Shown here piece after piece: positions 7,039-40,636 of a stretch of 55,875 nt of DNA. Source of the stretch: Candidatus Fermentithermobacillaceae bacterium (lineage in GTDB: Bacteria > Bacillota > Sulfobacillia > Fermentithermobacillales > Fermentithermobacillaceae); NCBI GenBank assembly GCA_012841375.1, contig DUUV01000147.1:1-55875 (forward strand), given 5' to 3'. How positions within the stretch are numbered: the first letter of the stretch is position 1; each line of letters opens with the position of its first letter. Under the pieces are notes generated by a model that ran no database searches, had not been told where the DNA came from, and saw nothing but the letters and a program-made list of their open reading frames with translations. A program made the position numbers and the translations under genes.

Positions 7039-8637
7039 CTATCCCAACGGTAGGCAATCGTGCTTCACAAACTGACTGGAGATCCATCCTTCCTGGTGGT
7101 TCGGGAGTCTTACCCTGACCCATCCGGCTTGGAGCTGCAGCACCTGGACCGTCATGCCCGCATTCACCTGGGCGATGACCGCGTAGGTCATGCCGGGGCC
7201 CTGGCGGACGTTGACCAGGTTGGCCGTGACGGTACCCGTACAGATTCCCGGAGATACGGCGCACTTCACCTTGGTCACAACGTGGATCTGCCTGGTTCTG
7301 AAGACCCTGGCTGTGATCTCGAGGACTTTCGTGACCATGACGGGTTCACCGGCAGGCGGCACCTCGCAGTTGGCGTGCTCCACCCGGACCGACACCCTGG
7401 CGGTCATGCCGGGTTTGGCTTCCGGCAGAATGACGAAGCCCGAGAACGGTACGGTATAGTGCAGCGTATGGACGGTTTGAGTTGGATCGGCCAGCGGCTC
7501 ATAGATAATCCTCTGGGCTATGACGCCGTCCACGATGACCTTCCCGGGAGCCACAATCGTGCGCTTGACCTCCGGAGTAGAGGCGCAATTCAGCACCGCT
7601 GCCGCAAGAGGTTTCTCATCGGGGATGTCTATGAGCTCCCTTACGATCTCCTGGGCTTTGTCTTCACCCAGAACCTCTTGTACTCGGACCAGCGCCTTCT
7701 CGATGTGGATTCCGGGGACTCCTGCCACGTTTGTTATGACGTGGATGTTCCGCACCGCGATGACTTTCACGTGGACCCGCAGGATGATCCTGACCGAAAG
7801 CGTCCTGCCGTCGGCAGCCACGTCTATCGAGACGAACTCCACATCGGCGTCTGCGACAACCGACATGCCAGGCTGAGCGCCCGGGATCTCCACAAACGAC
7901 TCGAACGGGATGGTGAAGTGAGCGACGTGAACCGACTGGCTGGGAACATTGGCCTCATAGATGACCCGCAGGTTGATGACTCCGTTGACGATGACCTTGT
8001 TCGGGAGCACGGTGGTCATACTGACGTCTATTGTGGAGACGTGGTCGATCACTCTTGCTACATCTGGTTTGGCGTCCGGTATGGCCAAGTTCTCTCGTAG
8101 GACGATCTGCGACTCGCCTTCGCCCAAAACGGTTTCCGCCTTTATCACTTCTCTGGTAACCTGCAATCCGGCAACGCCGCTGACGTCAGTGACTACTTCA
8201 ACGACAACGCTCTGAGTGAGCCTCACGCGCATGGCCGCGACCGCGCGGATTGTTACGTTCCGTCCGTCCGGACTAACCTGGAAGACGGCATGCTCCACAA
8301 CGACCGAGACGTTGGCGGTCATGCCGGGTTCGGCTCCGGGTATCTCCACGAACTGGCTAAACGGGACTTCCGCATGGAACACATGCACTGTCTGAGTTAC
8401 TTCGGTTGCTTCATAGATGATGGCGAAGTCGATTACACCATCGACAACGACTTTACCAGGGAGCACCGTGACCTTGTTGATGCGTGGTCTAGCGACGAAA
8501 TCGATGATTGCCCGTACATCCGGCTTCTCCTCAGGAACGGTCACGGCTTGGGAGATCACCAGTTGCGAAGTCCCTTCCCCTACGACCTCCTCCAGTCTGA
8601 GTTCCTCTTTCTTGACTTCGCAGGTATCCAGATTCAT
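7039..8637 (-). CDS. Triple SPOCS (DUF3794) protein with C-terminal SH3 domain, SipL-like
   Basis: 532 residues from ATG 8637, chosen over an upstream in-frame codon because AAAGGAGGG directly precedes it and the protein then begins at the family motif (EVKKEELRLEEVVGEG). Three DUF3794/SPOCS repeats occupy roughly 10-145, 160-310 and 318-465. Each contains VP/IPxxKPD, a PGKVxVDGVI-like strand and a PGAxPGM turn. An SH3b domain follows (about 470-528: TANLVNVRQGPGMTYAVI ... EGWISSQFV). SipL of clostridia, which recruits SpoIVA to the forespore surface, has SPOCS domains and a C-terminal LysM. Here SH3 takes the place of LysM. A role in spore morphogenesis is likely but inferred. Confidence 0.85.
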   Translation of the reverse strand: MNLDTCEVKKEELRLEEVVGEGTSQLVISQAVTVPEEKPDVRAIIDFVARPRINKVTVLPGKVVVDGVIDFAIIYEATEVTQTVHVFHAEVPFSQFVEIPGAEPGMTANVSVVVEHAVFQVSPDGRNVTIRAVAAMRVRLTQSVVVEVVTDVSGVAGLQVTREVIKAETVLGEGESQIVLRENLAIPDAKPDVARVIDHVSTIDVSMTTVLPNKVIVNGVINLRVIYEANVPSQSVHVAHFTIPFESFVEIPGAQPGMSVVADADVEFVSIDVAADGRTLSVRIILRVHVKVIAVRNIHVITNVAGVPGIHIEKALVRVQEVLGEDKAQEIVRELIDIPDEKPLAAAVLNCASTPEVKRTIVAPGKVIVDGVIAQRIIYEPLADPTQTVHTLHYTVPFSGFVILPEAKPGMTARVSVRVEHANCEVPPAGEPVMVTKVLEITARVFRTRQIHVVTKVKCAVSPGICTGTVTANLVNVRQGPGMTYAVIAQVNAGMTVQVLQLQAGWVRVRLPNHQEGWISSQFVKHDCLPLG

Positions 8638-8820
8638 TGCCCTCCTTTCATCCGAAAAAGGATGCCTACGCGCTAGATCATCTATATGCATCCGGTCTCG
8701 GATGTGACATAGGGCGTGTCTTGGCGGGGCAGGCTTGAGGTTGGAGGAGGAACGAACGGAGTAGCGCCGCGCGTGACGCTAACGAGCCGGGGACATTCCA
8801 GGCGCCCACAAGAAAAGCAA

Positions 8821-8842
8821 ACGGCCGGCGTCTGCCGGCCGT
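8821..8842 (-). terminator. Intrinsic terminator of the nfu-like gene
   Basis: ACGGCCGGC and GCCGGCCGT form a 9-bp stem with a 4-nt loop. On the minus strand it is followed by TTGCTTTTCTTG, 27 bp after the stop codon of the gene ending at 8869. Confidence 0.85.
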
Positions 8843-8868
8843 CTCACGTCTTTCTCCTGGTTCGTCTC

Positions 8869-9105
8869 TTAGCCTTCTGTCAGCCCCTCCGCCACAACTT
8901 TGGTGACCTCGGGGACTTCCTGCTTGAGGACGCGTTCAATACCGCCTTTGAGCGTCATGAGGGCGAACGGGCACGTACCGCAGTGTCCGGTGAGCCTGAC
9001 TTTGACCACTCCGCCGGGGCTAATATCGACCAACTCCACATCTCCGCCGTCGGCCTGGAGCGACGGGCGGACCTGTTCCAGAACGGCCTGAACCTTTTCC
9101 TTCAC
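8869..9105 (-). CDS. NifU C-terminal (Nfu)-like Fe-S scaffold protein
   Basis: 78 residues consisting only of the Nfu domain: VRPSLQADGGDVELVDI near the N-terminus and the cluster-binding CxxC in GHCGTCPFA (near residue 40). The GTG start has GAGGG 6 nt upstream. Single-domain Nfu proteins bind a [4Fe-4S] cluster between two subunits through the CxxC and pass it to target proteins. It is monocistronic here, with a perfect TTGACA at 9188-9193 (minus strand) upstream but only a weak -10, and a strong terminator after it. Confidence 0.9.
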   Translation of the reverse strand: MKEKVQAVLEQVRPSLQADGGDVELVDISPGGVVKVRLTGHCGTCPFALMTLKGGIERVLKQEVPEVTKVVAEGLTEG

Positions 9106-9232: not shown

Positions 9233-10936
9233 CTAGATGCCTGAAGCTGCCTCTACCTCATCATCGACCTTGTTTTCACGTTCGATGGAATCCAGGAAGG
9301 TCTGGTCGTCGGTGAAACGTCTCGCGTGAGACATGCATGTCTGGATCGTCCGCTTCCTGCTGGCGCTGTCTATCCGGAAGGTCCTGGCCGCGATCAGCAG
9401 ATCTTCGTTGGTGACGTGATGCCTGTCCATGTCAAAAGCGATTCTCTTCGACCTGGTCACCAGTTCTTCCAGTTCGGCGCAGGAGAAATTGCGGGTGCAC
9501 GGGACAATTGCCTCCTCAAGGAAGCGCCGGGTCTCATCCTCCCCCTTCTCCAGCGGTACCCGGGAGCGTCTCCCGCCCGCCTGGAAACCGAGGTGCACCA
9601 TCAATATCTCGAGCCTTGCCTGGGGACCGGGGTAAAGGAACGGGATCTTGTAGTCAAAGCGCCCAGCGCGGAGGAAAGCGTCGTCCAGGTGCTCGGGTAC
9701 GTTGGTAGTTCCCACGATGATGGCTTCTCTGTCCGGGCGCCCGAGCCACTCCAGAAACTGCGAGAAAACCCTCTGGGTCTCCTCCTCGGCCGAGCCGCTT
9801 GACGCGCCCGAGCGCTTCCCGAAGCGGTCGATTTCGTCCACGAACACTATGGCCGGCGACATCTTCTCGGCCATGGTAATCGCGTTTTTCATGTTCTGCC
9901 CCGACTCCCCCAGCCACTTCGAGTAGATGTTTTCGGTCACTAGGTTGATGAACGGCAGCTGGACTTCGCTGGCCAAGGCGTTGGCGAAAAGGCTCTTGCC
10001 GGTCCCGGGAGGGCCGAAAAACAGAAGGCCTTTCGGGAGACCCAACCCAAAGTGCCTCGCCTTCTCGGGCTTCTTCAGGACGTTGATGATGTACTTCGAC
10101 ACAAACTCCTTGATCGCGTGATAGCCTCCGATGTCTTTGAAACTGAATTGAGGGTCTCGAACCTCAAGGACCTTGGAACGCTTGACCATTTCGGATTTGA
10201 GTTCTTTCATTATGTCCGGGTCGAAGTCTTTAGCGCGGTGATAGGACTCAAGGAGTATGCTCTCGACCTGGTGTAGGTTTAACCCCGACAGGGTTACCTT
10301 TGTACCCTCGATCTTGGACTCATCCAGGGTTACCCCCAGTTCATCCGCTGTCCTCATGATGATCCCCTTGCGTTCATCCTGGCTTGACGGATCAACCGGG
10401 ACGATGACGACGAACTCCCTGGTGAACTCATCCATTATCTTGGAGGCGTCTGACGTGAGGATCATGATGGTTGAACCCTTGGCCAGGATCCGGGAATCGA
10501 TGGCCCAAGCGCGAAGGGCGGCCTGAAATCCCGTGTCGGCCTCTCTGACTTCAGAAATGTTTTGAGCCACGAACACCGTGGAACTGGATTTCAGGTATCC
10601 GTCCATCTCTTTGAGGACGGCCTTCAGGGCCTGTATCTCGACTGAGCTGTCGGGTCCCCTGAGCCGCGAAGTGACGGGAGTGCTCACCCCGATCCTCTTT
10701 CGATATGGTTCAAACACGGGACCTTCAGAGCCTTTCCTCAACATGCCCAGACCGTCCCACGGGTCGTACAGGAAGACGTTCTCGATGTGTGACAGTTCGG
10801 GAGAGCTTAGGATGAACGTCTTGAGCTGGTATATCCTTTTGGGGTCAACGGTCTCGAAACAAATGACGGGCGAGTAGTTGGACTTCCTCTTCATCATGCC
10901 CCTCTGCATCCAAGACCGGTCCAGGTAATCCTCCAC
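9233..10936 (-). CDS. Ycf46-like AAA+ ATPase
   Basis: 567 residues from GTG 10936, preferred because GGGAGG lies 5 nt upstream; another GTG lies at 10951. Residues about 15-255 are a degenerate AAA-like region without a Walker A. The segment PVDPSSQDERKGIIM is followed by a helical stretch with LSGLNLHQVESIL. A complete AAA+ module follows: Walker A GPPGTGKS about 308-315, Walker B VFVDEID about 364-370, sensor-1 Asn in TTNVPE near 412, and Arg-rich RAGRFDYKIPF near 423. This two-part architecture, with FxDIGGYHAIKEF before the ATPase core and GLGLPKGLLFFGPP, matches Ycf46 of cyanobacteria and red-algal plastids. It is the last gene of a cassette with Ycf35-like and DUF2997-like proteins. The substrate is unknown. 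Confidence 0.85.
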   Translation of the reverse strand: MEDYLDRSWMQRGMMKRKSNYSPVICFETVDPKRIYQLKTFILSSPELSHIENVFLYDPWDGLGMLRKGSEGPVFEPYRKRIGVSTPVTSRLRGPDSSVEIQALKAVLKEMDGYLKSSSTVFVAQNISEVREADTGFQAALRAWAIDSRILAKGSTIMILTSDASKIMDEFTREFVVIVPVDPSSQDERKGIIMRTADELGVTLDESKIEGTKVTLSGLNLHQVESILLESYHRAKDFDPDIMKELKSEMVKRSKVLEVRDPQFSFKDIGGYHAIKEFVSKYIINVLKKPEKARHFGLGLPKGLLFFGPPGTGKSLFANALASEVQLPFINLVTENIYSKWLGESGQNMKNAITMAEKMSPAIVFVDEIDRFGKRSGASSGSAEEETQRVFSQFLEWLGRPDREAIIVGTTNVPEHLDDAFLRAGRFDYKIPFLYPGPQARLEILMVHLGFQAGGRRSRVPLEKGEDETRRFLEEAIVPCTRNFSCAELEELVTRSKRIAFDMDRHHVTNEDLLIAARTFRIDSASRKRTIQTCMSHARRFTDDQTFLDSIERENKVDDEVEAASGI

Positions 10937-10954
10937 GGTATCCTCCCTCACCTT

Positions 10955-11188
10955 CTACCCGCAGGGAGAGCTCACTCTCGCCTCCAGTCTGAGTCCATAA
11001 CGGGACAAGGCCTCAAGGAGCTCGGCGGTCTTTCCGTCTCCCGAGCGTTCGAAGACGCTCACCCGGAGCGGCGTGATCTCGATCTCCAGGTATGACCGGG
11101 AGCAAGTGGCCTCCCTCCGGCGGTCCGCCGGAGCGGCCCGTTCGCGCCCGGGATGAAGACCCACGCCCTCCAGCGCGACCCGGGTCAA
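10955..11188 (-). CDS. Small unknown protein of the Ycf46/Ycf35 cassette
   Basis: 77 residues from TTG 11188, whose TTGA overlaps the stop codon of the DUF2997-like gene, indicating translational coupling. The first 30 residues are Arg/Ala-rich and unstructured. The rest (SYLEIEITPLRVSVFERSG, then a helix and LEARVSSPCG) looks like a small alpha/beta domain ending in Cys-Gly, two residues from the C-terminus. I do not recognise a family. Its place between DUF2997 and the AAA+ gene, with only 18 bp to the next start, makes it part of the same complex or pathway. Confidence 0.65.
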   Translation of the reverse strand: MTRVALEGVGLHPGRERAAPADRRREATCSRSYLEIEITPLRVSVFERSGDGKTAELLEALSRYGLRLEARVSSPCG

Positions 11189-11412
11189 CTGACCGACACC
11201 TTCCGGCGGGTTTCTTTCTGTGCGCCTACTTCCGCCTCCATTTCAGATGAGGTCTTCGGCATGACCGACACGGGCAACGCCCAGAGGCCCATCGAACGCA
11301 GGATTTTCTGAAGCGACTCCGCCTCCTCATAGCAGAGCTCCCCGTCAAATCCAGAGAACTCGATCTTCAGTTGACCGTTCCTGCCCACCTCAACGTCAAC
11401 ACGCCTGGACAT
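11185..11412 (-). CDS. DUF2997-like small protein
   Basis: 75 residues from ATG 11412, with GGGAG 7 nt upstream. The ATG overlaps the preceding stop as TGATG; a GTG one codon earlier is also possible. Residues 4-38 fit the DUF2997 pattern: a strand with VDVEVGRNGQLKIEFSGF, then GELCYEEAESLQKIL, which holds the conserved Cys. The C-terminal 35 residues are charged and not conserved in what I know of the family. DUF2997 genes sit beside Ycf35/DUF1257 genes in cyanobacteria, so the neighbourhood supports the call. The function is unknown. Confidence 0.7.
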   Translation of the reverse strand: MSRRVDVEVGRNGQLKIEFSGFDGELCYEEAESLQKILRSMGLWALPVSVMPKTSSEMEAEVGAQKETRRKVSVS

Positions 11413-11852
11413 CACAATACTCCCTTGATGAGGACCTTTTTGCCTTCAATCGGGTGCTTGACCTCGTCAACCTCAACGCTGTAATTCAGGGCGGCCAGGG
11501 CCTTGGCCACGCAGAGCGATGTGTAATTCTGGACGACCCTGTCTTTAATCTCACCCGCCACCCTCTCAAAACCTCCGTAAGAATCGCAGACGAACATGAC
11601 CTCGCCCGTTTTCCGGTCAACGGTTACGCCGATGCCTCTGGGGATGTCCGGCCCGACGAGTCCCCAGTCACACTCAAGGGTCCTTCCGTAGTAGTCCTTG
11701 AACGAGCGGGTTACGTCAAGGTTCATCTCCTCGGCCGTCGCGTGTATGGCTTCGTTCAGGACGTCCCAACCGGGATCCTCCTCGACCGAACGTCCCGTCA
11801 AGAGCGCCTGCTCCAGCTTTATTTCCGTCTTGTAGGAACTTATGTGGCTCAC
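11412..11852 (-). CDS. Ycf35-like (DUF1257) protein
   Basis: 146 residues. The N-terminus MSHISSYKTEIKLEQAL matches the MSHFSTIKTQI start of Ycf35/DUF1257. The middle (WGLVGPDIPRGIGVTVDRKTGEVMFVCDSYGGF) corresponds to the family segment on an unknown small-domain fold. The C-terminal part (VVQNYTSLCVAKALAALNYSVEV) corresponds to QxYA...GF. The GTG start overlaps the upstream stop as GTGA and has GGAGGT 7 nt upstream. Ycf35 is a plastid- and cyanobacteria-conserved protein of unknown role; here it occurs in a spore-former with no photosynthesis genes in view. It is translationally coupled both up- and downstream. Confidence 0.75.
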   Translation of the reverse strand: MSHISSYKTEIKLEQALLTGRSVEEDPGWDVLNEAIHATAEEMNLDVTRSFKDYYGRTLECDWGLVGPDIPRGIGVTVDRKTGEVMFVCDSYGGFERVAGEIKDRVVQNYTSLCVAKALAALNYSVEVDEVKHPIEGKKVLIKGVL

Positions 11853-12682
11853 TTGTCAGACCTCCAGCCGAGTTTGACCTGGCTTCTCAAGTACTGGCTC
11901 TTGGCGAATTTGGCCGACTGCAACTCCCTGTGGATCTCCTGAAGCCTTTGCCTCAGGGCTCCCTCGTCGGCTTTGGCCGGTGGTTTTCTCTCCGGCCTGG
12001 CCCGCTCTTCCCTGCCAGGAGGCTCTTTTTCAATGAGGGCGAGCTTATATACTGCCAGACGGGCTTTCAACTGGTCTCTCTTGGACTCATCCGCCTCTTC
12101 GCTTATCTCCCGCTCTATGGAGGCGATGTCATCCCTAAGCTCGCCGGGGGTCTTGTCACCGGTCTCATCGCGCCACTCCAGAACCTTCAGAGACCGTATC
12201 CTGGCGGCGCCGCCCCCCTGCTCCCACGCCTCTACTGCCCTTTTCAGTTGGTCTCCCGGATCGGGCCTCGGAGGCTCGGGTTGCGAGACAGCCTCCGAGA
12301 CATCCTGAGCGCGCCGGTAAGCCTGCCACCTCATGCTCTCCAACTGCCGCAGAATAGATTCCTCTTCGTCCTCCAGGGCGGAGACGGCCTCATCGAATCG
12401 TCGCGTGAGGAAAGCCTTCCAGAGGACGACCACCATATACGAGAAGAGAGAGAACAGCGCGAGCGCCACGGTCAAGGCTATGGCGGCCTTGAGGCCGAAC
12501 GACCATTCGGGAGCCACCGAAGACGCCGTCCTCCAGCCGGAATAGAGTGAACCTACCGCCACAAGGCCAAGGATGGCCAGGGACTCAAGTGTGTGGCGGT
12601 AATTCCTGACGAGGGTGCGCATCCAAGCATAGCCCAGCCAGAGAAAAACCGCGAATCCCACCAACGCAGGGACAATCCACAT
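11849..12682 (-). CDS. Three-TM coiled-coil membrane protein heading the Ycf46/Ycf35 cassette
   Basis: 277 residues; ATG 12682 with GAGGTGG 7 nt upstream. Hydrophobic segments are at about 2-20, 33-50 and 65-90. The remaining 185 residues are cytoplasmic or extracytoplasmic and highly charged, with predicted coiled coils (EAVSALEDEEESILRQLESM; DDIASIEREISEEADESKRD). A Lys/Arg/Pro-rich hinge and a final helix follow. No enzymatic motif is seen. Its stop overlaps the Ycf35-like start, so it is probably the membrane anchor or partner of the cassette. I recognise no family. Confidence 0.75.
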   Translation of the reverse strand: MWIVPALVGFAVFLWLGYAWMRTLVRNYRHTLESLAILGLVAVGSLYSGWRTASSVAPEWSFGLKAAIALTVALALFSLFSYMVVVLWKAFLTRRFDEAVSALEDEEESILRQLESMRWQAYRRAQDVSEAVSQPEPPRPDPGDQLKRAVEAWEQGGGAARIRSLKVLEWRDETGDKTPGELRDDIASIEREISEEADESKRDQLKARLAVYKLALIEKEPPGREERARPERKPPAKADEGALRQRLQEIHRELQSAKFAKSQYLRSQVKLGWRSDK

Positions 12683-12756: not shown

Positions 12757-13779
12757 TCACGAAGGACGATGAGAGAGACCCGTCAGAACCTCCCGGGCTT
12801 TCCACAGTTCGTCAGTCGTCGGCCTTTCCAGCAGAGTGGTTCTCCCGCCCCGGTTCACTACGCGGCTTCCACCTGTCATTTTGCCCACGACCTCGGCGTT
12901 CAAACCGGACCTCCGGTAGACCTCGCAGAGCCGCTGGCCGTCGGGATGGGACACGATCAGACAGCCGGAGGAGACGAGTCTCAAAGGGTCGATGCCTACT
13001 CTAGATGATATCTCACGGGTTACCGGAAGGACCGGGATCCGGTCGGCCTCTACGATCGCCCCGGTGCCGGACGCCTCGCACATCTCATAGATGGCCCCCA
13101 ACACCCCGCCTTCGGTAGCGTCGTGACAGGCATGGGCACCTTCATCGCGAGCGATGGCTCCGTCTTTGACCACACTGATTCTGCTCAAGAGCCCCTCGGC
13201 TTCCCTTATGGACTCCGGGCTCAGGAACGCCGACAATTCTTCCCTGAAGTCGTGAGCCAGTATCGACGTGCCTTCCATGCCCGCCCACTTGGTGACTACG
13301 ATGTCGTCGCCGGCCCGACAGCCGCCGGACCTCACTATCTTCTTCTCGCGAGTCTTCCCCAGAGCCGTCACGCTCAATATGGGCCGCTGAAGGCCCGGAG
13401 TGACCTCGGTGTGCCCGCCGGCCACCGCCACGTTTTCCTCAAGACAAGCCGCGTGGATGTCATCCATCAATTGCCGCAGCTCTTCCTCTGACGTCCCCTC
13501 GGGAAGAAGCACGGTGACCATGACGCAAACCGGCTCCCCGCCTGCGGCGCCAATATCGTTGAGGGCCACTTTCACGGCCAGCCATCCGGATCTCTGGGTT
13601 GCGCCGGTAATGGGGTCGGTGCTGGCGATGAGGAGTTCGTCGCCGATATCGACCATGGCCGTGTCTTCGCCGATCGCAGGCGCAACGACAACCTCATCCC
13701 TGTGAGCGCCCGCTCGCTCAAACACGACTTCTTCAAGGACCGATTGCGGTACCTTGCCCGCAGGAAGGATCCTGGCCAA
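12757..13779 (-). CDS. AIR synthase-related (HypE/PurM-fold) protein
   Basis: 340 residues from TTG 13779, with GGAGG 9 nt upstream. The PurM-like N-terminal domain (about 30-150) has APAIGEDTAMVDIGD, ASTDPITGA, VKVALNDIGAAGGEP and the metal/ATP segment AVAGGHTEV. The C-terminal AIRS_C domain (about 155-310) has DATEGGVLGAIYEM and LVSSGCLIVS. The family includes HypE, SelD, ThiL and PurM. It most resembles HypE-like orphans but lacks the C-terminal PRIC-like cysteine that HypE uses, so hydrogenase maturation is not supported. The gene lies 74 bp upstream of the Ycf46/Ycf35 cassette on the same strand and could be cotranscribed. Confidence 0.8.
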   Translation of the reverse strand: MARILPAGKVPQSVLEEVVFERAGAHRDEVVVAPAIGEDTAMVDIGDELLIASTDPITGATQRSGWLAVKVALNDIGAAGGEPVCVMVTVLLPEGTSEEELRQLMDDIHAACLEENVAVAGGHTEVTPGLQRPILSVTALGKTREKKIVRSGGCRAGDDIVVTKWAGMEGTSILAHDFREELSAFLSPESIREAEGLLSRISVVKDGAIARDEGAHACHDATEGGVLGAIYEMCEASGTGAIVEADRIPVLPVTREISSRVGIDPLRLVSSGCLIVSHPDGQRLCEVYRRSGLNAEVVGKMTGGSRVVNRGGRTTLLERPTTDELWKAREVLTGLSHRPS

Positions 13780-13865
13780 TTCCTTTGTCCTCCGTAAATC
13801 TGCAGAAATGAAGGCTTCAACTTTGGTTCAGGTCAATTATAACATTAGGCCAGTTTGTGGTAACG

Positions 13866-39079: not shown

Positions 39080-40632
<1,553 letters not shown>

Positions 40633-40636
<4 letters not shown>

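Follow-up and report, generated by a model that had tools for sequence, protein, structure and literature searches.

We examined a 55,875-nucleotide (nt) stretch of a Candidatus Fermentithermobacillaceae genome (Bacillota; Sulfobacillia; contig DUUV01000147.1), referred to here at its full length as the window, and focused on a five-gene cassette on its minus strand (Table 1). The cassette encodes a transmembrane (TM)/coiled-coil protein, a 146-amino-acid (aa) protein related to Ycf35 (DUF1257), a 76-aa DUF2997 protein, a 77-aa protein termed p77, and an AAA+ ATPase resembling Ycf46, and it is most likely a new branch of the known but unexplained Ycf46/Ycf35 module. The first four open reading frames (ORFs) are chained by three successive 4-nt overlaps (GTGA, GTGA, and TTGA) between 12682 and 10955, and the AAA+ gene is the fifth. 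A preceding sequence-only reading had placed five overlapping genes in this interval; the overlaps are as it described, but the interval holds four genes. Its placement of the AAA+ start 18 bp past the p77 stop fits the likely start, a GTG at 10936, which GAGGGAGG precedes at a spacing of 5 nt; an alternative in-frame GTG lies at 10951.

The gene order (TM/coiled-coil, DUF1257-like, DUF2997, p77, AAA+) is held in 40 of 40 neighborhoods of the class, representing many families. The TM/coiled-coil gene is present in all 40 cassettes examined, and in a single cassette (L055) no p77 was detected. Homologs of these two genes, which had been listed as extra members in the window, lie beside Ycf46-like and Ycf35-like genes throughout the class. 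The 146-aa protein is present in 49 of 121 relatives, as a single copy in each and across many families of the class, and an independent search with the AAA+ protein recovered the identical 49 genomes and none beyond. Given the constant order in all 40 neighborhoods and the identical sets of genomes that carry the DUF1257-like and AAA+ genes, the cassette is not a chance arrangement. In a broader sample of the phylum, the 146-aa family was found in only 4 of 299 genomes, all four from the same class, and it was absent from about 290 sampled genomes of other classes. The AAA+ tree tracks genome relatedness wherever it is resolved, which suggests an old presence in the class, with losses. In one locus (L043 8569-10221, genome G054), an insertion of the serine-recombinase/TnpB type separates p77 from the AAA+ gene.

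Family relationships of the cassette proteins

The AAA+ protein has an intact C-terminal AAA module (Pfam AAA, 1.7e-33 for the window protein), including a Walker A motif (GPPGTGKS), a Walker B motif (IVFVDEID), a sensor motif (GTTN), and RAGRFD. The other rows of its alignment share 54-89% identity with the window protein, and among PDB profiles it matches VCP-like ATPases best (E about 1e-87). The N-terminal 260 residues align over 208 columns with the N-domain of cyanobacterial and plasmid Ycf46 (hhalign E 5.4e-13), compared with E values of 0.5-0.7 for controls (FtsH and the TM protein), and a degenerate N-domain followed by a C-terminal AAA module is the architecture common to the class AAA+ proteins and Ycf46. 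Phylogenetically, the class proteins fall into a single clade (99/99) on a long branch beside the Ycf46/plasmid clade and apart from FtsH, with the class proteins and Ycf46 grouped against FtsH at a support of 97/95. This placement is provisional because of the long branch and because the tree includes no p97/PAN outgroup; the common N-domain is the stronger evidence of relationship. Pore loop 1 reads KWLG, KWFG, or KYLG in 20 of 20 class proteins (KWLG in the window), whereas it reads LVG in the four cyanobacterial Ycf46 proteins tested. In both the tree and the motif comparison, the class proteins fall outside the cyanobacterial Ycf46 clade and do not carry the LVG pore loop. Judged by sequence, then, the cassette ATPase is Ycf46-like, as had been proposed, but it belongs to a separate clade and is not Ycf46 itself.

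Pfam and NCBIfam scans of the individual window proteins gave no match for any of the four small or membrane proteins, and their relationships come from family profiles. None of 41 orthologs of the 146-aa protein matches the Pfam model of DUF1257 (PF06868), nor does any protein in the whole source genome. By contrast, the class profile aligns colinearly over 108 columns with DUF1257 of cyanophages, plasmids, and another Bacillota class (hhalign probability 97.9, E 5e-13); the two alignments share no rows, and unrelated pairs treated by the same procedure gave E values of 0.008-0.5. The earlier naming of this protein as Ycf35/DUF1257 is thus upheld by profile homology and not by the Pfam model: by its profile, the protein is homologous to Ycf35/DUF1257 over the length of the domain and lies outside the Pfam model. 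A fold search with its predicted structure (predicted local distance difference test, pLDDT, 88) returned no reliable match, with KA1 domains (Z 5.9) and Bcs1 (Z 3.9) in the noise range. In a Bacillota genome of another class (G324), a single protein (L074 7891-8559) combines DUF1257 with DUF2997, a fusion that independently supports the view that the two act together. The element carrying this fusion (also L074 12332-14461) has further genes similar to those of the PRTRC system, among them one for a ThiF-like protein.

The assignment of the 76-aa protein to DUF2997 holds: Pfam PF11211 matches 33 of 41 class orthologs (E<=1, best 2.6e-7), although the window copy alone has no match. The class profile also matches an alignment of DUF2997 from cyanobacteria, phages, and plasmids (E 8e-13), a comparison that is partly circular in that the alignment included the window copy. 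A cysteine preceding the helix is invariant in 41 of 41 class sequences and in 59 of 59 alignment rows that include cyanobacteria, cyanophages, and plasmids. By these sequence criteria, the protein is a DUF2997 member. Its predicted structure (pLDDT 62.6) is too weak for a fold search. An Nfu-like iron-sulfur (Fe-S) fold was considered for DUF2997 and is not supported (Nfu profile E 0.016, probability 2.8); the search for such a fold found no similar solved chain.

A core of about 47 aa in p77 matches the profile of the local DUF2997 family (probability 92, E 5e-7); none of 38 members matches the Pfam DUF2997 model, and p77 lacks the DUF2997 cysteine. Each of the 40 copies detected, including that of the window, ends in Cys-Gly, an ending found in 58 of the 4990 ORFs of the same loci with the 40 p77 copies counted in. 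PCG, the ending originally noted, is the commonest, and the fixed part is the last two residues only. From its profile, p77 is probably a second DUF2997-like protein, paralogous to DUF2997, so that of the two proteins first called unrecognized only the TM protein remains so, with no family recognized. In this 277-aa protein, residues 1-95 hold two to three TM segments, and a coiled coil follows. The coiled coil of the original description is borne out; averaging over the family makes three TM segments plausible, the second being weak in the window protein. The coiled-coil part carries a conserved W..GG.ARIRSLKV.EW motif with invariant W153, R161, R163, and W170. A second copy of the TM protein occurs in genome G017, adjoining a dnaE-like gene (solo/extra loci L283-L290).

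Relatives in cyanobacteria, cyanophages, and plasmids

Ycf35 and Ycf46 have been "hypothetical" plastid genes for decades and have been interpreted via photosynthesis. The first Ycf35 and DUF2997 queries used here were validated by Pfam matches only, and all comparisons use database sequences. In 80 cyanobacterial loci, DUF2997 adjoins ycf35 in 79, as the sequence-only reading had it, but the Ycf46 neighborhood that it also assumed was not found: none of the 80 loci has a Ycf46-type AAA gene within 8 kb of ycf35, and Ycf46 lies elsewhere in the genome. A cyanobacterial cluster duf2997-ycf35-fed7 is described in a previous report (PMC4284462). The DUF2997-DUF1257 pair is also present in 74 of 80 cyanophage contigs.

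Complete sets of a Ycf46-type AAA gene with DUF1257 and DUF2997, checked with hidden Markov models, were found on plasmids of Thermovibrio, Rhizobium, Nostoc, Geminocystis, Paenibacillus, Bacillus licheniformis, Anabaena, and Candidatus Manganitrophus. These eight clusters span five phyla (Aquificota, Pseudomonadota, Cyanobacteriota, Bacillota, and Nitrospirota), and they serve as examples rather than as a rate because four of the eight were located via DUF1257 itself; the AAA search led to eight plasmid loci that were inspected, and four of these contain both partners. On an Arthrobacter plasmid (Actinomycetota) the AAA gene is accompanied by just a DUF2997-like gene, and on a Treponema plasmid it stands alone. 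Small TM proteins are encoded in three plasmid clusters. NrdG-like radical-SAM or 4Fe-4S proteins are encoded near the plasmid AAA genes of Paenibacillus, Arthrobacter, Treponema, and Bacillus licheniformis (L262 7278-7859, L261 8217-8639, L260 4354-4962, and L263 1272-2087). On the Geminocystis plasmid (L158 3945-10452), where DUF1257 looks truncated, the set is flanked by an ATP-binding protein/RloB pair on one side and a DUF4007 gene on the other, a setting typical of defense islands.

The occurrence of these clusters on plasmids of five phyla supports the view that the AAA-DUF1257-DUF2997 module is not tied to photosynthesis, and with it the earlier suggestion that its ancestral role need not be photosynthetic. 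No photosynthetic reaction-centre gene was found in the source genome. In the available portions of the literature mentioning DUF1257 or DUF2997, we found no description of a joint system of the three families.

Flanking genes and extent of the transcription unit

Directly upstream of the cassette lies a gene of the AIR-synthase/HypE/SelD superfamily, and downstream lies an Nfu-type Fe-S scaffold gene. We infer that one transcription unit may span 13779 to 8869, since a promoter match lies upstream of the AIR-synthase-like gene and a hairpin lies past the Nfu gene; the sigma-70-like consensus search found one site versus 1.3 expected by chance. Each of the two neighbors adjoins the cassette in only 18 of 41 loci (Nfu mostly within about 130 bp), and the conserved core is therefore the five genes. 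In an empty-site comparison, relatives close to the source organism but lacking the cassette also lacked the AIR-synthase-like upstream gene. Elsewhere in the window (39080-40636) is a shortened FtsH-like AAA protease of 518 aa with an HEAGH motif, distinct from the cassette ATPase.

Table 1. Genes and other features of the cassette and its surroundings in the window
Feature	Position	Strand	Remarks
Sigma-70-like promoter, upstream of 13779	13836-13863	-	Consensus match only, 10/12
AIR-synthase/HypE/SelD-superfamily gene	12757-13779	-	Pfam AIRS; possible first gene of transcription unit
TM/coiled-coil membrane protein	11849-12682	-	277 aa, ORF call
Ycf35/DUF1257-like protein	11412-11852	-	146 aa, N-terminus MSHISSYKT
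DUF2997 protein	11185-11415	-	76 aa, invariant Cys28 at helix start
p77	10955-11188	-	77-aa ORF, TTG start; true start may lie later
AAA+ ATPase	9233-10951	-	567-572 aa; likely start GTG 10936
Nfu-type Fe-S scaffold gene (NifU C-terminal domain)	8869-9105	-	Pfam NifU 5.2e-28; possible last gene of transcription unit
Terminator-like hairpin, 11 pairs, after Nfu gene	8819-8844	-	
SPOCS-domain protein, downstream	7039-8691		Three SipL/SPOCS repeats + SH3

Possible function and comparison with known systems

On balance, we lean toward the view that the five genes encode one membrane-linked AAA+ protein-remodeling machine, the Bacillota branch of an old Ycf46-Ycf35-DUF2997 module. The AAA+ protein would form a hexamer and pull polypeptide through its pore, by analogy with p97 and Vps4, while the small adaptors or regulators bound by its degenerate N-domain might be the Ycf35-like and DUF2997 proteins. 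Another adaptor surface, with an exposed C-terminal Cys-Gly, might be supplied by p77, and the TM/coiled-coil protein would anchor the whole complex at the membrane, on its cytoplasmic face. Threading of the client by the Bacillota branch, as opposed to a different mode of action in Ycf46, is predicted from the pore loop alone. Several observations weigh against this picture. Aromatic pore loops occur in FtsH too and are no proof of threading; the DUF2997 model is of low confidence; and the DUF1257 fold has no reliable match. In addition, the TM protein is present in the 49 cassette-bearing genomes and, without the other genes, in 7 more of the 121, so it is not strictly tied to the cassette and may have a separate function of its own.

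A possible client is suggested by recurring Fe-S neighbors, namely Nfu here, fed7 in cyanobacteria, and NrdG-like genes on plasmids. This association is suggestive, and because such neighbors recur, a metal- or redox-sensitive protein complex would be the first substrate candidate, if only as a lead. The link is loose, as Nfu and the upstream gene each adjoin in under half of the loci, no profile similarity connects Nfu with DUF2997, and the plasmid examples are few and lack a background rate. A bolder proposal, which we consider improbable, is that a general machine, non-photosynthetic in origin, for the maintenance of Fe-S or radical enzymes survives in part as Ycf46, Ycf35, and DUF2997. In it, the AAA+ motor would remodel the client, the DUF2997 cysteine and the C-terminal Cys-Gly of p77 would create a reactive or metal-binding site, and the version found in Bacillota would be fixed to the membrane.

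The same genes might instead encode a soluble regulatory ATPase complex that switches the activity of a client without threading it, as proposed for cyanobacterial Ycf46; the membrane protein would then serve as no more than a docking site or sensor. Synechocystis that has lost Ycf46 shows lower activity of the carbonic anhydrase EcaB, and the Ycf46 operon responds to iron, sulfur, nitrogen, light, and oxidative stress (PMC7496141); both observations favor regulation, as do the N-domain common to the class proteins and Ycf46 and the lack of an enzymatic signature in the small partners. However, the class proteins have a threading-type aromatic pore loop that is missing in the four cyanobacterial Ycf46 proteins tested, and we regard this alternative as possible, though not the probable one. 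Relatives on plasmids, on a phage-like Rhizobium plasmid, and in cyanophages raise another possibility, that of a mobile-element or anti-phage/conflict module turned chromosomal, in which the AAA+ protein and its small partners would guard or modify a target, like the AAA-protease pairs IetAS and SgiAT. IetA models do match the AAA domain, and the SGI1 antitoxin has been described as a member of the SpoVK/Ycf46/Vps4 superfamily (PMC10954446). Yet the similarity to IetA is confined to that domain and the small proteins have no PADLOC match, on which grounds a known defense system was rejected. The operon contains no nuclease, protease, or toxin; with regard to IetAS, no protease or subtilase was found among the five genes or the scanned flanking genes. 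Its single copy, vertical-looking tree, and class-wide conservation further make a conflict module quite unlikely. A sporulation-stage machine, for example in spore-envelope assembly, was considered because the organism has Spo0A and a SPOCS-domain protein is encoded downstream, the latter nearby in 15 of 41 loci. Spo0A is present in 112 of 121 relatives and the cassette in only 49; most Spo0A-bearing relatives thus lack it, so that a linkage to sporulation was rejected and a role of this kind seems very improbable.

Returning to a membrane-linked remodeling machine, the value of the cassette is that it detaches Ycf46 and Ycf35 from photosynthesis and defines a five-protein set. Both the conserved operon in heterotrophic spore-formers and the plasmid clusters of five phyla indicate that the parts form a unit and function in the absence of photosynthesis, and they suggest that the proteins labeled "plastid" are components of an older, general protein-remodeling machine. 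The set is compact, its five proteins are co-expressible, and it has testable features (pore loop W346, DUF2997 Cys28, and the p77 Cys-Gly), while the Bacillus and Paenibacillus plasmids offer simpler versions in workable hosts.

Compared with known systems, the 146-aa protein shares with Ycf35/DUF1257 (PF06868) an MSH start and a directly adjoining DUF2997 gene, but it is longer and none of its orthologs falls within the Pfam model. The 76-aa protein shares with DUF2997 (PF11211) the invariant cysteine in a G..GxxC region, and it differs in its extended C-terminal part and in being accompanied by p77. Ycf46 (Slr0374), the cyanobacterial and plastid AAA+ protein, likewise has a degenerate N-terminal domain ahead of a single intact AAA module, whereas the class proteins form a separate long-branch clade with an aromatic pore loop and are encoded in an operon with DUF1257 and DUF2997. 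With p97/Cdc48, Vps4, and other classical AAA remodelers, the class proteins have in common the KWLG pore loop and the VCP-like profile match; by contrast, they lack a second active AAA domain, a known N-domain, or MIT-type adaptors. The plasmid clusters (for example, those of Paenibacillus polymyxa pPPM1a, Bacillus licheniformis, and Anabaena pANACY.02) place the same three families side by side, although with a Ycf46-type AAA protein, without a homolog of p77 or of the TM protein, and sometimes with an NrdG-like/4Fe-4S gene nearby.

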